This document shows, in pieces, positions 108 to 26,880 of a stretch of DNA of 64,000 nucleotides; the stretch's first letter is position 1; every line of letters begins with the position of its first letter. The stretch spans positions 186,001-250,000 of the forward strand of contig NZ_JACJQO010000005.1 of NCBI RefSeq assembly GCF_014696715.1, given 5' to 3'. Below the pieces are notes generated by a model. The model searched no databases and was not told the DNA's origin. It saw only the letters and a list, made by a program, of their open reading frames with translations. This DNA is from Pseudanabaena sp. FACHB-2040. Lineage in GTDB: Bacteria > Cyanobacteriota > Cyanobacteriia > Phormidesmidales > Phormidesmidaceae. The translations under genes and the position numbers were made by a program.

Positions 108-2717
108 TTACTGGTTTTCTAGGCAGGTTCGGGCCAGTACGAGCCGACCATTGGCCAGAGAAGTCACCGCGTTGGGTTCTACGATGGGGTCGCCGGGCTG
201 CCAGGGAGCGGAGCTGGTGGGGGTTGGAATAGCTTGAACTGAGCCGGTGGCAAAGGGCGCGGGCGCGGCTTCACCAGGGTGGGCCGGCAGGCTGTCGCTG
301 CCGGTGATGACTAGAGAGGCGGTGCCTGCTACGGTCGGCGCGATGCAGCTGCCAGCAATGAGCTGATCGGGATTAACCACGGTATCGGGCAGTTCGCTTA
401 GGCTGTTTTGAATGAAGCTGACGTCGGGCAGCGCGATCGCACCACTTGCGATCGCACCACTCGCATTCACATCTACTCGATCATTGCCGTCTAGCTCAAT
501 TGGGTTGGTGCCGCGCGGGGCGGGCTGGAAATTCTCGCCAAAAAAAGCGGGCGTATTGAGCACGATGTTGCCGCCGCTGCCGCCCACAGAAAAGGCCAGG
601 ATGTCGCTGTCGCCCAGCGCAATCACAGAGCGGGCCGTCATGAAGATGTTGCCGCCCCCACCCTCGCCGCTCAAGACCACAGTGGAAATGTCGCCGCTGT
701 TTGAGAGGCGCACCCGGTCGGCATTAATGACGATATCGCCCCCGGTAGACTGCAGAGCTAGCGTCGTGATGTTGCTGGCATCGACTAGCAACAGATCTCG
801 CAGGTTGAGTTCTAGGGTGCCGCCCTGGCCAGTGCCGCCGGTTGCCGCGTTGATGATGCCGCCCTGGGTGACAAAGAGCGATCTGCCCGTAACCAGAATA
901 TCGCCGCCCTGGCCTTGGGAGCCTTCGTCTGCCGAGCTAGAAATCCCGCTGAAGTCTTCATTGCGGCCGACGCCATCGATGATCACATCCTCGCCTGCTC
1001 TCAGGACAATATCTCCGGCGTCACCCTGGGCAGCCGTCGCTGTTACCAGGCGACCTCCCTGAATAAAGCGAGCGGTGCCGCTGATATCGAGATTGATGTC
1101 GCCCGCATCGCCTGTGCCGTTGGTCAAGGTCGTAATCACGGCATCGTTGCTAATCTGCAGCGAGCCTGCCCGGATATTCACATCGCCCGCATTGCCCGTG
1201 CTGTTGGTCAAGGTGGTGATAATCGCGTCGTTAGTGACCTGGACTGAACCAGCCTGAATTTCGACATCGCCCGCATTGCCTGAATTGTTGGTGATGGACT
1301 GAATCAAGGTGCCTTCGCCGCTGAGGCTGAACTGGTCGCTAGCCAGTATCCGGATATTGCCCGCATTAATCGCGGGTGAAAACGACGAAGCTATTAGCTG
1401 CGATCCGTCCGTCATGACCACCTTAGGAGCCTGAAGCGTCACGTTGCCAATCTGAGCAGTACTCTCCAGTTCGGGATCGATAATAAGGATGGTAGACGTG
1501 ATTTGGCTGATCTCTCCGCTGGGGCCAGTGCCAGCGAGGCGAATCGTATCTTCGGCTTGAATGGTGATGTTGCCGGAGCTGCCCTGGCCCAAGGTAAAGG
1601 CCGCGATGGTGCTGCCCCCTAGCAGTTCGAGGGTTTGGGCTGCGATCGCAATATTGCCCGTACTGCCCAAGCCAAGATACACATTGTTCGACAGATCACT
1701 GCTTTCCGATAGCCGCAGTCGCCCGGTAGCGTTGATTTCAATATCGCCTGCCCGGCTGCTTTCATCGCCTGCCAGCGGCCCTAGCCCTGCCGCGATTTCG
1801 CTGTTTCCAGCGATGTCAATGCTGCGGCCATAAAGGGCTATCTCTCCCCGATCTGGGCCAATGACGCTAAGCTGCGCCCCGTTGAGCAGGGCAATGTCGC
1901 CGCGCTCGACAGCTGCCGGGAAGCTGAGCTGTAGATTGCCCCCAGATTGAGCCAGCCCTACAGAGCCTGTGCCTGCGATCGCACCTAGCTCAATGCGACC
2001 CCCAAAGGCGTTCAAGCCTCCGTTATCAATCAAAACCTGATCTCCCAGCAAAATCAGGCTCTGACCGTCAACTACCCGCAGCCCCTGAGCTGGGCTCAAG
2101 AAGTAGTTTGTGCCCGCATCGGCGCGAGAGGTGCTGACAATCGAGCCTGGGATTGCTTGAGTAAAGAGAAAAGCAGAGGGGTTGACCGTCAGTAGCGGCG
2201 ACGGTGCCTCCTGGTTGAGGGCGCTAAACTGACCTGCTTCGCCAAACTGTAGGGTGTCGGCAGTGGTGGCGACAAAGGCTCCACCTACACTCAGCGCCGC
2301 CTCCTCGCCAAACACAACGCCATAGGGGTTAATCAAAAATAGGTTGGTGTCTGGCACCTCGAACCCGCCCCCTGTGTCCTGGACAATGCTGACCAAGCCA
2401 TTAATTGAGGACGCTGCAGCGCCTGTAATGCGGGCAAAGATGTTGGCCAGATCACCAGGGGGCAAGAAGAAGTAAACCCCGTCTCCAGCCCCCACATTGA
2501 ACGTTTCGAAGCTGTGAAACAGATTTTGGTCGCGGACTACACCGCCCTCAATCAGATAAGTCGAGGGAAAGGCGTCTACGGTCGTGCCCAGAGATCCGTC
2601 TGGGATCACCTCCGTCACCTGGGCCGATGCTGGTAAGACTGCGATCGCACTCCCGATCAGGCCACTTCCAATCGCAGCCAAAATAAACCGTGGACGAGAT
2701 ATAGTTTGCCAAATCAT
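108..2717 (-). CDS. Filamentous haemagglutinin N-terminal domain protein (TPS exoprotein)
   Basis: This 869-residue exported protein has a Sec signal peptide at residues 1-32 (hydrophobic core, then ASA before Gln33). A haemagglutination/TPS domain follows at about 35-270, with the family hallmarks NLFHSFETFNV (65-75) and INPYGVVFG (129-137). The rest is a repetitive Gly/Asn/Ile-rich beta-helix (GDIxI, GNIxI rungs) with two nearly perfect 28-residue repeats. Proteins of this family are moved across the outer membrane by a dedicated FhaC/ShlB transporter; the only one in the window is at 34434-36149. There is no RTX or anchor motif, and the tail is short and Pro/Ala-rich, with a Cys pair as in many cyanobacterial homologues. 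It diverges from the CHAT-TPR gene, a common neighbour of TPS genes in cyanobacteria. Substrate or target unknown; adhesin-like is an inference. Confidence 0.88.
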   Translation of the reverse strand: MIWQTISRPRFILAAIGSGLIGSAIAVLPASAQVTEVIPDGSLGTTVDAFPSTYLIEGGVVRDQNLFHSFETFNVGAGDGVYFFLPPGDLANIFARITGAAASSINGLVSIVQDTGGGFEVPDTNLFLINPYGVVFGEEAALSVGGAFVATTADTLQFGEAGQFSALNQEAPSPLLTVNPSAFLFTQAIPGSIVSTSRADAGTNYFLSPAQGLRVVDGQSLILLGDQVLIDNGGLNAFGGRIELGAIAGTGSVGLAQSGGNLQLSFPAAVERGDIALLNGAQLSVIGPDRGEIALYGRSIDIAGNSEIAAGLGPLAGDESSRAGDIEINATGRLRLSESSDLSNNVYLGLGSTGNIAIAAQTLELLGGSTIAAFTLGQGSSGNITIQAEDTIRLAGTGPSGEISQITSTILIIDPELESTAQIGNVTLQAPKVVMTDGSQLIASSFSPAINAGNIRILASDQFSLSGEGTLIQSITNNSGNAGDVEIQAGSVQVTNDAIITTLTNSTGNAGDVNIRAGSLQISNDAVITTLTNGTGDAGDINLDISGTARFIQGGRLVTATAAQGDAGDIVLRAGEDVIIDGVGRNEDFSGISSSADEGSQGQGGDILVTGRSLFVTQGGIINAATGGTGQGGTLELNLRDLLLVDASNITTLALQSTGGDIVINADRVRLSNSGDISTVVLSGEGGGGNIFMTARSVIALGDSDILAFSVGGSGGNIVLNTPAFFGENFQPAPRGTNPIELDGNDRVDVNASGAIASGAIALPDVSFIQNSLSELPDTVVNPDQLIAGSCIAPTVAGTASLVITGSDSLPAHPGEAAPAPFATGSVQAIPTPTSSAPWQPGDPIVEPNAVTSLANGRLVLARTCLENQ
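1120..1287 (-). repeat. 84-bp tandem repeat inside the TPS exoprotein gene
   Basis: Two adjacent 84-bp units (1120-1203 and 1204-1287) encode successive 28-residue beta-helix rungs with the shared core ITTLTNxTGxAGDV. Partial copies lie on both sides. The unit is a multiple of three, so gain or loss would keep frame and change helix length. Confidence 0.75.
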
Positions 2718-2921
2718 TACTTTTTCCCTTACGTCCCTTTGCTATGCTGAGGTGCATCTTTCAAAGCCCCTTCAATGCCCCCTAAAAGCCCCCTCAAGGG
2801 CCAGCCCTAAAGATTGTTTACAGTCGCCTCAGCCAACTCCCCTGTAGACTTGCCTACCATAACAACAGGGCCGCCTCACCCTGATCAAAACGTCATTCTC
2901 CTTTAAATACCCCATCTCCTC
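2718..2921. promoter_or_regulatory. Divergent intergenic region, TPS exoprotein / CHAT-TPR
   Basis: This 204-bp spacer must hold the promoters of both divergent genes. It has a CCCCT-rich stretch at about 2764-2810. I could not identify convincing -35/-10 boxes or an operator. Confidence 0.35.
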
Positions 2922-5540
2922 ATGTTTCAGCGTTGGCCTCGCCGCACCGCCGCCCTTCTGTTTTTAAGCAGTCTCATTCTCACGCTCTGGCTGGGGCTGG
3001 CCCCACTGCCAGGGTTTTCTCAAGTGAGCAGGAGCACCGCTGTTCCGGGCCAGCTGGTGCAGTCGGGCGTGGCGGCCTACCAGAGCGGCGACTATGCAAT
3101 GGCGATTCGGCACTGGCAGGCGGCGCTAGCGGCTTTTCCGGTCGGCATTGCTCTGGCAGAACAGGCCACTGTGCAGGAGAACCTGGCCCGCGCCTATCAG
3201 CAGATCGGGCAAACCCCAGAAGCCCTGAACTACTGGGAAAAGGCCACGGCGGCCCACAGACAGCTAGGCAACTTGGCACAGGTTAGCCACACGCTGACCG
3301 AACAGGCCCAAGTCTATACCAGCCTGGGGCAGCACCGCCGAGCCATTGCCCTACTCTGCCTGCCCCAGGGCGAAGCCGGAAGCGCAATGGACTGCGCGGC
3401 CAATACAGCGCTGTCGCTAGCCCAAGCCGCTGCCGATCCGGTAGGACAGGCTGCCGCTTTGGGCAGCCTGGGAGAAGCCTATCGCCTCAGGGGTGACTAT
3501 GAGCAGGCGCTCAAGGTACTTCAGACCGGGCTGGCCCTGGTGCAGGCTCACGGGCTAGACCAGTATCAGGCCTCTATGCTGAGTGGGTTGGGCAATACCT
3601 ACATCCGGCTGGCTCAGGCCAGCTATCGGCGGGCAGCTTCGTCTGAAAGCTTGGGCATTATTGAATTTGCTCAAACTTTGCAGGCCCAGGCCCAGGCACA
3701 AGAGGCCCAGGCGCTGACCTATCTGCAGCAGGGGCTGGAGGTAGCCCGCCAGCGGCAGGATGCTGGGGCTGAGGTGCGATCGCATCTCAGTCTGCTGCCC
3801 CTCTACCAGCGTCAGCAGCGCTCTGCCGAGGCTGACACTAGCCGTCAGCGGCTGGGTCAACTGATCGGCCAACTGCCTCCTAGCCGCGAAACGGCCTATG
3901 CTGCCATTACGTTGGCTAAGTCCTACCAGCCCAGTCGCGCCACGCTGAATTGCGTTCCAGGAGTTCACCAAGCCGAGGCCCAGCGTTGGCTAGAGCAGGC
4001 CCAGGCCATTGCTATCCGCATTGATGATGACCGAGCAGCGTCCTTTGCTCTGGGTGAACTGGGCCACCTGAGCCAGTGCCGGGGCGATTTGCCGACTGCT
4101 CTTAGCTTTACTCAGCAGGCACTCTGGGCCGCCGATCAGGCTTTGGTTTCGACCGACAGCACCTACCTGTGGCAGTGGCAGCTAGGGCGAATTTATCGGG
4201 CGCAGGGGCAGCAGGCGCAGGCCCTAGCGGCTTACCAAGAGGCTATAGCCACCCTAGAGGTGATTCGCAACGACATTTTGATTGCTGACCAGGAGCTGCA
4301 GTTTGACTTTCGAGACACGGTCGCACCGATTTACCGGGAGCTGATTGCTCTCCAGCTAGAGCCAGAAGGTGCGATCGCACTTCCCAAGCAGGCAACCTCA
4401 GTCAACCTGGAGGCCGCCCTGACTACCGCCGACTCGCTCAAGCTGGCTGAACTGCAGAGCTACTTTGGCAGCGACTGCGTGATTGCCCCCATCAGCCAAA
4501 CGCGGGTAGACCAGGTCAGCGCCAGCTCGGCCACTACTGTCATCAGCTCCATCATTTTGCCGGAGCGCACTGCGCTTATTGCCCGCTTCCCCGATGGGTC
4601 GCAGCAGCTAGCTTGGGTAGACGACAGTTCGCTGCTGCAAAAGACTGTCGTTGACTTTCGCATTCGGCTGCAGCGCTACCGCGACCCCGCCTTTGACAGC
4701 AGCAGCAGCCAACAGCTCTACGCCTGGCTGATCCAGCCCTTTGAATCTGCCCTGCAGGCCAGCGGTACCACGACTCTAGTGTTTGTGCAGGATGGCGTGT
4801 TGCGCAGTGTGCCGATGGCGGCTCTGTACGACGGCCAGCATTACCTGATCGAGCGCTATGCCGTGGCCACTACGCCCTCTCTAACGCTGACCGATTTTCG
4901 GCCCCTGCGGGAAGAAAATTTGCAGGCCCTGGCCCTAGGTCTGAGTCAAAGTATCACGACCGCCGATGGTCAGTCTTTCATTCCCCTGCGCAATGTGCCC
5001 ACCGAGATTAATACGGTGCTCACTCAGTTTCCGGGAAGTCAGGCGCTGCTCAATGGTGAGTTTAGCCGCGAGCGATTGGGGCAAACCTTGGCTCAGCGGC
5101 CCTTTCCGCTGCTGCATGTAGCCACTCACGGCCAGTTTGGGGGCGATCCTAAAGACACGTTCATCGTCACTGGCAAGGGCGAAAAGCTCACCTTTGGCGA
5201 ACTGGAGCGCCTAATTCGCGGCAGCTCGCCCAATGCTGAGCCGCTTGAGCTGATCTCTCTGACGGCCTGCGAAACGGCCGTGGGCGATGATCGCTCGACC
5301 TTGGGGCTGGCAGGCGTGGCGATTCGTGCTGGGGCGCGCAGTGCGATCGCATCTCTCTGGACCATCGACGATGCCACCACCGCCCAGCTCGTCAGCGGTT
5401 TCTATACTGGGCTGATCAAGCCTGAGCTTAACAAAGCTCAGGCTCTACAGGCAGCCCAAAAAGCAGTCATTGCAGCGGGCGGCGATGGAGCCCACCCCGC
5501 TTACTGGGCACCGCTGATCGTAGTGGGCAACTGGCTATAG
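2922..5540 (+). CDS. TPR-CHAT domain protein (caspase-like protease fold)
   Basis: The 872-residue protein starts with a hydrophobic segment (residues about 9-32, LFLSSLILTLWLGLAPLPGF) that looks like a signal peptide or anchor. Tetratricopeptide repeats follow at about 40-450 (for example YQSGDYAMAIRHWQAAL and LRGDYEQALKVLQTGL). A C-terminal CHAT domain spans about 590-870. The catalytic dyad expected of CHAT/caspase-like peptidases is present: His736 in HVATHGQF and Cys783 in SLTACETA. CHAT-TPR proteins are abundant in cyanobacteria and often sit beside TPS exoproteins, as here. Substrate unknown; processing of the neighbouring exported protein is only a hypothesis. The hydrolase gene downstream is 40 bp away on the same strand, so co-transcription is possible. 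Confidence 0.85.
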   Translation: MFQRWPRRTAALLFLSSLILTLWLGLAPLPGFSQVSRSTAVPGQLVQSGVAAYQSGDYAMAIRHWQAALAAFPVGIALAEQATVQENLARAYQQIGQTPEALNYWEKATAAHRQLGNLAQVSHTLTEQAQVYTSLGQHRRAIALLCLPQGEAGSAMDCAANTALSLAQAAADPVGQAAALGSLGEAYRLRGDYEQALKVLQTGLALVQAHGLDQYQASMLSGLGNTYIRLAQASYRRAASSESLGIIEFAQTLQAQAQAQEAQALTYLQQGLEVARQRQDAGAEVRSHLSLLPLYQRQQRSAEADTSRQRLGQLIGQLPPSRETAYAAITLAKSYQPSRATLNCVPGVHQAEAQRWLEQAQAIAIRIDDDRAASFALGELGHLSQCRGDLPTALSFTQQALWAADQALVSTDSTYLWQWQLGRIYRAQGQQAQALAAYQEAIATLEVIRNDILIADQELQFDFRDTVAPIYRELIALQLEPEGAIALPKQATSVNLEAALTTADSLKLAELQSYFGSDCVIAPISQTRVDQVSASSATTVISSIILPERTALIARFPDGSQQLAWVDDSSLLQKTVVDFRIRLQRYRDPAFDSSSSQQLYAWLIQPFESALQASGTTTLVFVQDGVLRSVPMAALYDGQHYLIERYAVATTPSLTLTDFRPLREENLQALALGLSQSITTADGQSFIPLRNVPTEINTVLTQFPGSQALLNGEFSRERLGQTLAQRPFPLLHVATHGQFGGDPKDTFIVTGKGEKLTFGELERLIRGSSPNAEPLELISLTACETAVGDDRSTLGLAGVAIRAGARSAIASLWTIDDATTAQLVSGFYTGLIKPELNKAQALQAAQKAVIAAGGDGAHPAYWAPLIVVGNWL

Positions 5541-24167: not shown

Positions 24168-24500
24168 AATCGGTTATCTGCCCTTAGAAGGAGGTGACAG
24201 ATGACCGGGTATCACCGTGATTTTGTAGGACTTTAGCGGTGATGCTTCCCACCCTTGCTGGTGACTGTAGGCCCGAGCAGACGTGACGCAGGATTGGCGA
24301 TGAGAGTGATTCAAGTTTTAACTATGCGTGATCTAAATCATAACTGTGAAAGATGGGCTGTTTCTTGCCTCAATCTTCAGCCGCCGTTAACCAAATCAGC
24401 CTAAAGACTTAATCTCTAAGCTGTGCCAGGGCGCTAAAATAGAAAGTAAGTTCTGTAGTTATTGATACAGAAAGTTTTCAAAATTAGGGTTCCTCCAGCT
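24168..24500 (+). other. Region upstream of gifA with a possible leader peptide and hairpin
   Basis: A perfect Shine-Dalgarno (AAGGAGGTGA, 24188-24197) is followed by ATG at 24201 and an 11-codon frame (MTGYHRDFVGL, stop at 24234-24236). The stem ATCACCG (24211-24217) / CGGTGAT (24237-24243) overlaps its 3' half. The arrangement resembles a leader-peptide region. gifA starts 265 bp further on, after an NtcA site. No other gene is seen. Confidence 0.35.
24455..24468 (+). promoter_or_regulatory. NtcA binding site upstream of gifA
   Basis: GTA-N8-TAC (GTAGTTATTGATAC), with dyad symmetry extended by CT/AG on both sides, is the exact NtcA consensus. It lies 15 bp downstream of a TAAAAT (24435-24440) that could be the -10 box. 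So NtcA would sit over or after the start of transcription, the arrangement of a repressed promoter. NtcA is known to repress gif genes under nitrogen limitation. Confidence 0.75.
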
Positions 24501-24635
24501 ATGACTACTCAAGATCGTGCTCGTCAACTAATTGCCCGTCAGCGTCAGCAAAGCCAAAACCGCCGCGCCGCGATGCTGGGTCGCTCTACCCATGAAATCA
24601 GCCGCAGCGAAGTAGAAAATGGCCCTCTAGCTTAG
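24501..24635 (+). CDS. gifA: Glutamine synthetase inactivating factor-like protein (short IF7 type)
   Basis: IF7/GifA binds and inactivates glutamine synthetase when nitrogen is plentiful. This 44-residue frame begins MTTQDRARQLIARQRQQ and continues NRRAAMLGRSTHEI. It matches the IF7 pattern M(S/T)TQxxARxLxxR, NRxxxMLxR and xEI of characterised cyanobacterial factors, including the Arg-rich positive face that contacts GS. It ends after EISRSEVENGPLA, about 20 residues shorter than the classical about 65-residue factor. An NtcA site upstream and a strong intrinsic terminator 25 bp after the stop support an autonomous regulated transcript. The short C-terminus could change turnover or GS affinity. 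Confidence 0.75.
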   Translation: MTTQDRARQLIARQRQQSQNRRAAMLGRSTHEISRSEVENGPLA

Positions 24636-24656
24636 AGCTAACGGCTAAATAGTTTG

Positions 24657-24692
24657 CAAAAGGAGCGACAGCTAAGCTGTCGCTCCTTTTTG
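24657..24692. terminator. Bidirectional intrinsic terminator, gifA / copy B gene
   Basis: AGGAGCGACAGC (24661-24672), loop TAA, and GCTGTCGCTCCT (24676-24687) form a perfect 12-bp stem followed by TTTTT on the + strand and preceded by AAAA, which gives a T-run for the reverse strand. It can end both convergent transcripts. Confidence 0.9.
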
Positions 24693-24707
24693 GTACAGGG
24701 TTAAGGG

Positions 24708-24941
24708 TTATTCAATCAGCAGGTGCTTGGTAAGCATTCGCATCCATTCGTTGGGTCGCCCGGTAGGCAGCGGATCTGTCCAGTCGTTGGGCTCAGCGAA
24801 GTGGAGGATATAGAGATTTTTGATAATGCGATCGCAAGCAATCAAGCTGCCATAAACGACGATATGGGCTTTTTCACGATGGGGCGAAAGCTCAGCAAAA
24901 ACGGTGGGCGGCTGTGCGCCCGAGTCGGTTGATTGAAACAT
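24708..24941 (-). CDS. Small repeated-family protein, copy B (77 residues)
   Basis: Paralogue of the copy A gene at 9533-9766, same length. The core IVVYGSL, CDRIIKNLYILHFAEPNDW, then PTGRPNEWMRMLTKHLLIE is retained, with substitutions spread as expected under coding selection. Many changes are conservative (Arg/Lys, Leu/Met, Ile/Leu). No membrane segment, no known domain. It shares the structured leader upstream. It ends 15 bp from the bidirectional terminator. Function unknown. Confidence 0.65.
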   Translation of the reverse strand: MFQSTDSGAQPPTVFAELSPHREKAHIVVYGSLIACDRIIKNLYILHFAEPNDWTDPLPTGRPNEWMRMLTKHLLIE

Positions 24942-25318
24942 TGGGTTCTGGTTCCTTTGGTTTGTGGATAGAAACCTTTCCTACGTCTGTCATTGCGAGC
25001 CTTGGCGCAGCACTCTCCAGAGGGCAAGCCCCCCTCGAAACAGCTCCGTCTCACCCGCACAACAGGCGTGAGGTCAGGTTGAGGAAACCAGAACTCAAAA
25101 ACCCTGACCAATCCCGCTACATAGTGCAGTGGAGGATGATCAGGGTATCATCACCCTAGATCTCCGAGGCTGCCTAGTTCAGTTTTGGGGATTTAGCCGT
25201 CGGTCGGTGCCGCTAACACCTTCCGGCGGCGTCTAAGGTTTTCGAGTTCTGTATACCGCTGCCGCGTGCGACAGCTTAATGATTGAGCATAGGATAGGGG
25301 CGCGGCTGCGTCAACCGT
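24942..25318 (-). ncRNA. Conserved structured leader, copy B
   Basis: Reverse-strand counterpart of leader A: the whole leader-plus-gene block (24708-25318) is 611 bp, exactly the length of block A (9156-9766), with no net gap. The core hairpin lies at 25196-25230 (outer stem GCCGCCGG with CCGACGGC; one C-A mismatch). Relative to A, the pair at the sixth position changes from U-A to C-G and remains paired. The stretch GGTGATGATACCCTGATCATCC is identical to A. No promoter is identified. Confidence 0.5.
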
Positions 25319-25430
25319 GTTGTGTGCTGAGGGCCCAGAAATTTTGGATTTGGCTGTTATCAAATGGCGCTTTTTTGCGACTTACCTATAGAAGTCCAAT
25401 TTGGAAGCCTCATTACCCAGGAACGCATGA

Positions 25431-26018
25431 ATGAAGTTTCTCTCACCTCGTTCACCTGCCAGCCAAAGTTTCTTAAATTTAAAAATGAAGTCAGATGAGG
25501 AACTGGCCCAGGAAGCACAGCACAGTTCAGAGGCTTTTGCCGAGCTTTACCGCCGACATCTCAAAGCCGTCTACCGCTACCAGTTTGCCAGACTTGGTAA
25601 TGTTCACGATGCTCAGGACTTAACTGCCCAAACATTTTTGGCAGCCCAAGAAGGCATTGCCAGTTTTCGACGACGGGGCAAGTTTGCAGCTTGGCTCATG
25701 GGAGTTGCCTACCGAAAAAACGTAGACTACTTCCGCCGCAAACGCTCGACGCTGCCCTTAGAAGCAGCCACTAAAGTCGAGGATAATTCTATTGCGCCAG
25801 AAGACTTTGCTGAGCGGCAATTATCGCTTGATCAGGTGGCTCAAGCCCTTAGCCAACTGACTCCAGAACGAGCAGAAGCGATCGCACTTCAAATTTTTGG
25901 TGGGTTGAGCCTTGCTGAAGTGGCCCAAGTCATGGAAAAAAGCCCAGCTGCCGTCAAGATGCTAATTTCCCGCGCGTTGAAAGATCTCCGTAATTACTTA
26001 GCAACAACCTGTGAGTAA
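25431..26018 (+). CDS. ECF-type RNA polymerase sigma factor
   Basis: The 195-residue protein has sigma region 2 at about 30-100 (AFAELYRRHLKAVYRYQFARLGN, then AQDLTAQTF) and region 4 at about 130-190 (LTPERAEAIALQIFGGLSLAEVAQVM, SPAAVKMLISRALKDLR). No region 1 or 3 is present. AGGA lies 8 bp before the ATG at 25431, so I use that rather than the internal Met at 25485. The next gene, 6 bp downstream, encodes a single-pass membrane protein with an extracytoplasmic domain, the usual place for the cognate anti-sigma factor. Target promoters cannot be inferred. Confidence 0.9.
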   Translation: MKFLSPRSPASQSFLNLKMKSDEELAQEAQHSSEAFAELYRRHLKAVYRYQFARLGNVHDAQDLTAQTFLAAQEGIASFRRRGKFAAWLMGVAYRKNVDYFRRKRSTLPLEAATKVEDNSIAPEDFAERQLSLDQVAQALSQLTPERAEAIALQIFGGLSLAEVAQVMEKSPAAVKMLISRALKDLRNYLATTCE

Positions 26019-26023
26019 ATATT

Positions 26024-26632
26024 ATGAATTCTAAAGATCAGTCCAGTGAGCTGTCTCAGGCAGATTCAGCCTTACTTTCCCAACTAAGCCGCGCTGCAGA
26101 GGAAATTGAGCCAGATTCAACTTTTGAGGCCCAACTAGAAACCAAACTGTTGCAGGCTCGGCAGTCAGCATCGAGAGACACCCATCAACCGAAACTTCCC
26201 TCTAGAGGGTTGCGTCGGCGTGCTGCTTTAGTCGCGTATGCTTCGCTTGCGATCGCAGCTGGTTTAAGCATTACAACTATCACCTCCGGATGGCTGCCTG
26301 AGTGGGTAGTATCCGCTCTTACCTCAACAATTGATCCCCAAGCAAACGCACAGACCACTGCCCAACTTAAGGAAACGGGGCAAATTTTTGTGCGTGCAGA
26401 TGCTCAGGAAGTCAATGAAGAGACACAGGAAGTAAGAGCAATTGGCAACGCTGCTTTTATCTATCCAGAAGCTCAAATTGAAGCTAATGCTGATGAAATT
26501 CGATATGTGCCAACAGATCAGCAGATTGTTCTCTTGGGTAATGTTCGAATTTCACAGAGAGGCGAGCAATTGCAAGGTACAAGCGCAATTTGTTCAATTG
26601 ACAAAAAGCAGTGCCGCTTAAGTGAAGATTAA
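26024..26632 (+). CDS. Membrane protein with LptA/OstA-like domain, putative anti-sigma factor
   Basis: The 202-residue protein has a polar N-terminal region (1-62) and one hydrophobic segment (about 64-86, ALVAYASLAIAAGLSITTI). The C-terminal domain (about 115-200) has the OstA/LptA pattern: IFVRADAQEVNEETQEVRAIGNA, YPEAQIEANADEIRY, QIVLLGNVRISQRGEQLQG. Such domains bind lipopolysaccharide. The N-terminus faces the cytoplasm and could bind the sigma factor encoded 6 bp upstream, with the LptA-like domain outside. No ZAS zinc motif is present, so the anti-sigma role is an inference from context and topology. Confidence 0.75.
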   Translation: MNSKDQSSELSQADSALLSQLSRAAEEIEPDSTFEAQLETKLLQARQSASRDTHQPKLPSRGLRRRAALVAYASLAIAAGLSITTITSGWLPEWVVSALTSTIDPQANAQTTAQLKETGQIFVRADAQEVNEETQEVRAIGNAAFIYPEAQIEANADEIRYVPTDQQIVLLGNVRISQRGEQLQGTSAICSIDKKQCRLSED

Positions 26633-26701
26633 AAATGCGATTCTGCTTAACTTCTGCCAAACCTGTGAGCACTTTTTCTGGTGGGAGAGGTTGCGATCGC
26701 A

Positions 26702-26797
26702 CTAAATCCAATAGAACGCCTATGGCAGGAACTCAAGCGGGCTCTAGCTTGGATGCATTTTGATCGCTATGACCTCAAAGCAGTCCAAGCATCAAGC
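26702..26797 (+). pseudogene. IS630-like transposase C-terminal fragment
   Basis: The + strand frame reads LNPIERLWQELKRALAW, then FDRYDLKAVQ. This is the characteristic end of the IS630 family DDE domain (NPIE plus W motif). Only about 32 codons remain, with no ends or upstream catalytic residues, so it is a decayed remnant. Confidence 0.75.
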
Positions 26798-26880
26798 TCG
26801 GCGCGGGGTTTCTAAACCTAGCATTAGCTACGTTAACCTGCGGCAATCTCGGACGTAGGTAGAAGTTAGCAACAAAACTG

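Follow-up and report, generated by a model that had tools for sequence, protein, structure and literature searches.

In Escherichia coli, binding of LPS to RseB has been proposed to release the anti-sigma factor RseA for proteolysis, with LptA counteracting this release by competing for LPS; this RseB route of LPS sensing is indirect and disputed (PMC6358824). In the Bacillus subtilis anti-sigma factor RsiV, juxtamembrane amphipathic helices guard the signal-peptidase site-1 position (PMC6066255). In cyanobacteria, the ECF sigma factor SigG is co-transcribed with a partner, SapG, that binds SigG (PMC2758279). No LPS-responsive sigma system in cyanobacteria was found in the literature that we searched, and no anti-sigma factor with an LptA or OstA domain is described in the open-text literature searched (PMC).

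Here we describe a gene pair of Pseudanabaena sp. FACHB-2040 (contig NZ_JACJQO010000005.1) that we are inclined, on balance, to read as an autoregulated ECF sigma factor and its membrane anti-sigma factor with a sensor domain of the lipid-binding LptA type. Coordinates are positions in the window, the whole 64,000-nucleotide stretch of this contig that was analysed, and all features of the pair lie on the forward strand.

An ECF sigma factor gene is followed by a gene for a membrane protein

Both open reading frames are found where a preliminary description of this DNA had placed them: one encodes a 195-residue ECF sigma factor (25431–26018) and the other a predicted 202-residue membrane anti-sigma factor with an LptA sensor domain (26024–26632). 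The same description had the second gene follow the first by 6 bp; the close adjacency stands, while the gap between the sigma stop codon and the partner start codon is 5 bp. The sigma protein matches Pfam Sigma70_r2 (2e-14) and r4_2 (2e-12) and the NCBIfam model sigma70-ECF (TIGR02937, 4e-24), all above cutoff and as had been claimed for an ECF factor, and the same two collections gave no match to region 1.2 or region 3. By these profile matches, the product is an ECF (group 4) sigma factor with regions 2 and 4 only. It is 69–73% identical to the orthologues that adjoin an LptA-type partner, and 56% identical to the paralogues whose partner is of the DUF4367 type. Translation may truly start at the in-frame ATG at 25485 rather than at 25431, since the first 18 residues are poorly conserved.

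Three features of the surrounding DNA were seen in passing. A 23-codon frame (25427–25498), which begins at an out-of-frame ATG four bases 5′ of the sigma start, overlaps the sigma N-terminus, and a frame of 22–23 codons is found in six of the seven orthologues compared. Upstream of the operon, about 1.2 kb (24168–25354) hold no convincing gene, no RNA family and no tRNA. Downstream, a short frame with NPIERLWQELKRALAWMHFDRYDLKAV (26690–26805) looks by eye like the remnant of an IS630-type transposase; its 40-residue translation has no Pfam match.

The partner protein has a single predicted membrane helix and a probable LptC-like topology

The partner had been described as a cytoplasmic N-terminus, one membrane helix and an LptA domain, an architecture that hydropathy, the PF03968 match and the structure model all bear out. 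The predicted anti-sigma domain spans residues 10–46 (26051–26161), as judged from a profile scored against shuffled sequences, and the full-length AlphaFold model puts helices at residues 12–28 and 32–51; their boundaries are weak because pLDDT is below 60 in the N-terminal half of this model. There is no zinc-finger Cys/His motif: the cytoplasmic segment of the window partner contains no Cys and thus no HxxxCxxC, which rules out a zinc-binding (ZAS) anti-sigma factor. Curated anti-sigma models gave no match above cutoff among the seven members, and a match to the anti-sigma model NF052375, seen in one of the seven at 21.8 versus 100 bits, was not used as evidence.

Hydropathy of seven orthologues places a single transmembrane helix at residues 66–88 (26219–26287), with a basic flank on its N-terminal, cytoplasmic side; the full-length model has this helix at 62–88. 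A predicted juxtamembrane helix (residues 93 to 101 or 103) then leads to an AxA-like motif, A107-N-A109|Q110-T (26300–26350 for both), which is a candidate site for a site-1 protease or signal peptidase. Among the orthologues A109 (position −1), N108, Q110 and T111 are invariant; A, V or T occupies position −3, with Thr in one orthologue. The motif lies about 20 residues past the transmembrane helix, a wider spacing than normal signal peptides have; the protein would be cleaved at this site after the helix. In topology the partner appears to match LptC, extended on the cytoplasmic side by a putative anti-sigma domain.

The sections of the protein evolve at different rates. The LptA part is the slowest-evolving and most constrained, with a median dN of 0.24 (dS 1.05) against 0.54 for the linker and transmembrane helix, and as its dN is the lowest in the protein it is under selection for function. 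With the pair conserved and dN well below dS, we rejected the reading of the partner as a pseudogene.

The extracytoplasmic domain is an LptA homologue distinct from housekeeping LptA

Partner residues 125–193 match PF03968 (LptD_N/LptA) at 26.6 bits, above the gathering cutoff of 20.4, and this model is matched by all seven of the orthologues first aligned; absence of LptA similarity in a profile search had been named beforehand as the outcome that would speak against the assignment. The match to TIGR03002 (LptA, 9e-8) scores 32.1 bits, below the equivalog cutoff of 71.7. In an AlphaFold model of residues 104–202 (mean pLDDT 81), the top 42 Foldseek matches in the PDB are all LptA, LptH, LptC, LptD or LptG, and the full-length model has the same top structure matches (LptA/LptH/LptC). 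The LptA/OstA β-jellyroll (β-taco) accordingly comprises residues 112–199 (26357–26620), close to the 110–202 of the preliminary description. Judged by profile and predicted fold, the extracytoplasmic domain of the partner is a true LptA homologue.

It shares the jellyroll and PF03968 with housekeeping LptA, and differs from it in several ways. Housekeeping LptA is periplasmic, with a cleaved signal peptide and a C-terminal tail; the fusions stop at the last hairpin, beyond which housekeeping LptA proteins extend a median of 54 residues more. A tree of 59 LptA domains groups the seven fusions in a single clade (support 100/99), which two stand-alone proteins join (L002 and L003; 95/90) and which lies apart from the 50 housekeeping LptA; branches to the latter are longer than 1. 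An lptA-lptB-lptF/G-like housekeeping locus is intact elsewhere in the genome of the window, which, together with the distinct clade, argues that the fusion domain is not the LptA of the cell. We rejected the identity of the partner as LptA proper, the LPS bridge protein, on these two grounds as well as on the equivalog score and the membrane anchor.

The missing tail bears on a different way in which the domain might work. Lpt jellyrolls assemble edge to edge (PMC6358824), and with its LptC-like topology and without the C-terminal tail of housekeeping LptA the fusion could cap a jellyroll edge. It would then dock on the jellyrolls of LptC, LptD or LptA and report the integrity of the bridge, with loss or gain of docking, rather than LPS uptake, controlling proteolysis of the anti-sigma factor. 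The long branches that separate the domain from housekeeping LptA count against such docking, and we consider it unlikely.

A second hallmark is a Cys pair, C190-X6-C197 (26591–26614), in the last β-hairpin, where it likely forms a disulphide. All seven fusions carry CX6C, as do all further copies read and both stand-alone relatives, while the 52 housekeeping LptA compared all lack it. This invariance would suit a sensor of redox or folding state, in which the disulphide tracks periplasmic redox and makes the jellyroll, and with it the anti-sigma factor, more or less stable; the same pair is, however, found in stand-alone LptA-like proteins that have no anti-sigma part (L002, L003 and L124). 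This is more in keeping with a structural staple of the subfamily than with a signalling device, and redox sensing strikes us as quite improbable. Even so, given its Cys pair and missing tail, the domain may no longer handle LPS, or may respond to redox state.

The stand-alone proteins are periplasmic LptA-like open reading frames of 124–127 residues with a signal-peptide-like N-terminus and CX6C (L002:1393–1776, L003:1489–1872 and L124:1408–1779, the last left out of the tree). As the nearest relatives of the fusions in the tree, L002 and L003 point to a possible source of the sensor domain. A further LptA-like protein, of 275 residues (L090:1390–2217), seemingly has two jellyroll stretches, with LptC-like and LptA-like matches.

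Related sigma factors have partners with a similar predicted anti-sigma segment and other putative sensors

The genome of the window encodes a second sigma factor, 62% identical (G000:C1, 304268, L035), whose gene is followed by one for a 384-residue DUF4367-domain protein. Genome G054 likewise has a sigma paralogue with a DUF4367-type partner (L033), and in genome G009 a related sigma factor precedes a short partner of 103 residues. With a profile of the N-terminal segment of the LptA-type proteins (55 columns), the two DUF4367-type partners reach 31.8 and 30.1 bits and the short partner 13.8; the best of 3000 shuffles reaches 9.5. By this comparison the cytoplasmic segments of the LptA-type and DUF4367-type partners are homologous. 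Homology in the transmembrane and juxtamembrane part was dropped, since the scores there did not exceed those of shuffles. Unlike the LptA-type protein, the DUF4367 partners have a sensor of about 200 residues that lacks CX6C and is not LptA.

Since the segment is common to three kinds of partner while the outer part differs, it would constitute one anti-sigma domain with interchangeable sensors, which suggests a family of sensor-swapped sigma/anti-sigma pairs. The partner is very probably the cognate anti-sigma factor and probably holds the sigma factor at the membrane; with the segment shared among partners of paralogous sigma factors, the anti-sigma role that had been assigned to it next to the adjoining sigma gene is very probable.

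The pair is an accessory module of patchy distribution

A search of other cyanobacteria, called for in the preliminary description, found the intact pair in at least 13 genomes (those shared between scans counted once), which belong to three families plus one unplaced MAG. Unrelated pairing in other genomes, which that description had named as a refuting outcome, did not turn up. Among them are G262 (the same locus as in Myxacorys californica WJT36, L039), G480 (the same locus as in Cyanobacteria bacterium FACHB-63, L044), G478, Nostoc sp. FACHB-892, N. flagelliforme FACHB-838, Nostoc sp. CCCryo 231-06 and one uncultured cyanobacterium. The pair occurs in one of 65 genomes in the order of the window, in three of 42 in the family of G262 and in about eight of 218 in another family, where the scan gave eight intact pairs, partly in the same Nostoc genomes. 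This patchy distribution points to an accessory module rather than a core envelope-stress system. Distribution also sets the sigma factor apart from SigG: both are ECF sigma factors paired with a partner gene, but SigG-SapG occurs in several distant strains whereas the clade of the window sigma is found in two of the 386 genomes of a phylum-wide sample.

The flanking genes vary. In Nostoc sp. FACHB-892 the pair is flanked by Mob_Pre relaxase and D5_N primase-like genes, as on a mobilisable plasmid (L040:7278–9221 and 2122–5367), and in FACHB-63 a transposase gene lies near it. The changing surroundings and these neighbours indicate that the pair travels as a two-gene module. A plasmid collection contained no match to the anti-sigma protein and one distant sigma factor only. 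Chance neighbours are excluded, since the pair is kept in at least 13 genomes amid unrelated flanking genes.

Three copies from the Nostoc group (L122, L123 and L126) are truncated at different break points. Each keeps the transmembrane helix and the LptA part and has lost both the sigma gene and some or all of the anti-sigma segment. By DNA alignment, a single deletion in L122 took out the promoter-like site described below, the sigma gene and about 26 codons at the start of the partner gene. Such joint loss, together with strict adjacency, the absence of other lpt genes near the pair and the cytoplasmic segment that is common to DUF4367-type and short partners of paralogous sigma factors, weighs against the view that the partner is a transport accessory of the LptC/LptA kind and no more than co-expressed with the sigma factor. 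A weak LptC profile match that includes the transmembrane region (E 0.0034, below cutoff) speaks for such an accessory, which we nevertheless regard as highly improbable. Our preferred reading of the partner remains that of an anti-sigma factor.

A conserved promoter-like site precedes the sigma gene

Upstream of the sigma gene lies a promoter-like site, TGTTATCAA-N14-CGACTTAC, with putative −35 (TGTTAT) and −10 (CGAC) elements, which in the window reads TGTTATCAAATGGCGCTTTTTTGCGACTTAC (25355–25385). Every intact copy of the operon has it, with the consensus TGTTAYSAA-N14-CGAC / TGTTAC(G)AA-N14-CGACATAC, with identical internal spacing and at a similar distance to the sigma gene, and outside this block the DNA 5′ of the sigma gene is poorly conserved among orthologues. 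A resembling site, TGTTACAAA-N14-CGAT, stands 5′ of the paralogous sigma gene in the genome of the window (L035).

In four whole genomes the exact pattern has one match each, always at the LptA-type operon, versus none for a reversed control. With a looser pattern, seven of the nine genomes scanned have one match each, while G501 has two and G054 has none; the site in G009 precedes the related, paralogous sigma gene. Extra single sites in G478 and G501 were considered as regulon members and are weak and not trusted; besides these, the search for a regulon by scanning for the site returned only the operon itself and the paralogous operon in G009. At the stringency used in the genome scans, the site was absent from Lpt and LPS genes, which counts against our reading of the pair. 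Its position and conservation, and its near-confinement to the operon, indicate that the site is presumably the promoter used by the sigma factor itself, in an autoregulatory loop.

Discussion

The pair resembles the E. coli sigma-E/RseA/RseB system in having an ECF sigma factor and what are probably a single-pass membrane anti-sigma factor without a zinc motif and an autoregulated operon; as with RseB, a periplasmic domain of lipid-binding type would feed LPS status, the putative ligand, to the anti-sigma factor. In E. coli RseB is a separate protein with another, LolA/LppX-like fold; in our pair the anti-sigma protein itself carries the sensor, an LptA jellyroll, and the cyanobacterial operon contains no RseB or DegS-type partner. 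According to the preliminary description, folds of LPS transport do not usually serve as sensors of anti-sigma factors; this is true of the LptA fold and overstated more generally, given the precedent proposed for RseB (PMC6358824). With B. subtilis sigma-V/RsiV the pair shares the order of an anti-sigma domain, a transmembrane helix, a juxtamembrane helix by a signal-peptidase-like site and an extracytoplasmic domain (PMC6066255). However, lysozyme is the ligand of the RsiV sensor, which falls into other families (DUF4179 etc.), and in our case the AxA-like site, a candidate for cleavage, lies farther from the membrane helix. Its sensor being of a different family, the pair is a member of neither the RseA/RseB nor the RsiV group. 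What is new is the LptA sensor domain and its direct fusion to an anti-sigma factor; LPS-responsive sigma control as such was already known, in the form proposed for E. coli RseB.

We propose that the cytoplasmic N-terminus (residues ~10–46) would hold the sigma factor, that one helix would span the inner membrane and that the jellyroll, anchored in the periplasm like LptC, would report the state of LPS transport. The trigger could be lipid A-type acyl chains that back up in or escape from the Lpt bridge, or a bridge contact that is lost or gained. The resulting change of state in the jellyroll would open the juxtamembrane stretch to site-1 cleavage, intramembrane proteolysis would then free the sigma factor, and this would transcribe the operon that encodes it and probably a small number of targets. 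We infer binding of the sigma factor by the partner, the topology and the autoregulation with more assurance than the lipid or Lpt ligand and the proteolytic release; sensing of LPS or of Lpt status is, more tentatively, the best reading of the LptA domain. One possibility is that a direct anti-sigma sensor was made out of an LPS bridge module, with lipid A acyl chains or bridge contacts controlling an ECF sigma factor in a modular family; we entertain it seriously while stopping short of calling it probable.

A sensor built on the transport fold itself would bear on how bacteria gauge the supply and transport of LPS. As a simple two-gene device, the pair could be introduced into a model cyanobacterium to report on the status of LPS transport, and could serve to test occupancy of the jellyroll as a driver of regulated proteolysis. 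In the cyanobacteria that carry it, the pair may let cells read outer-membrane lipid supply directly.
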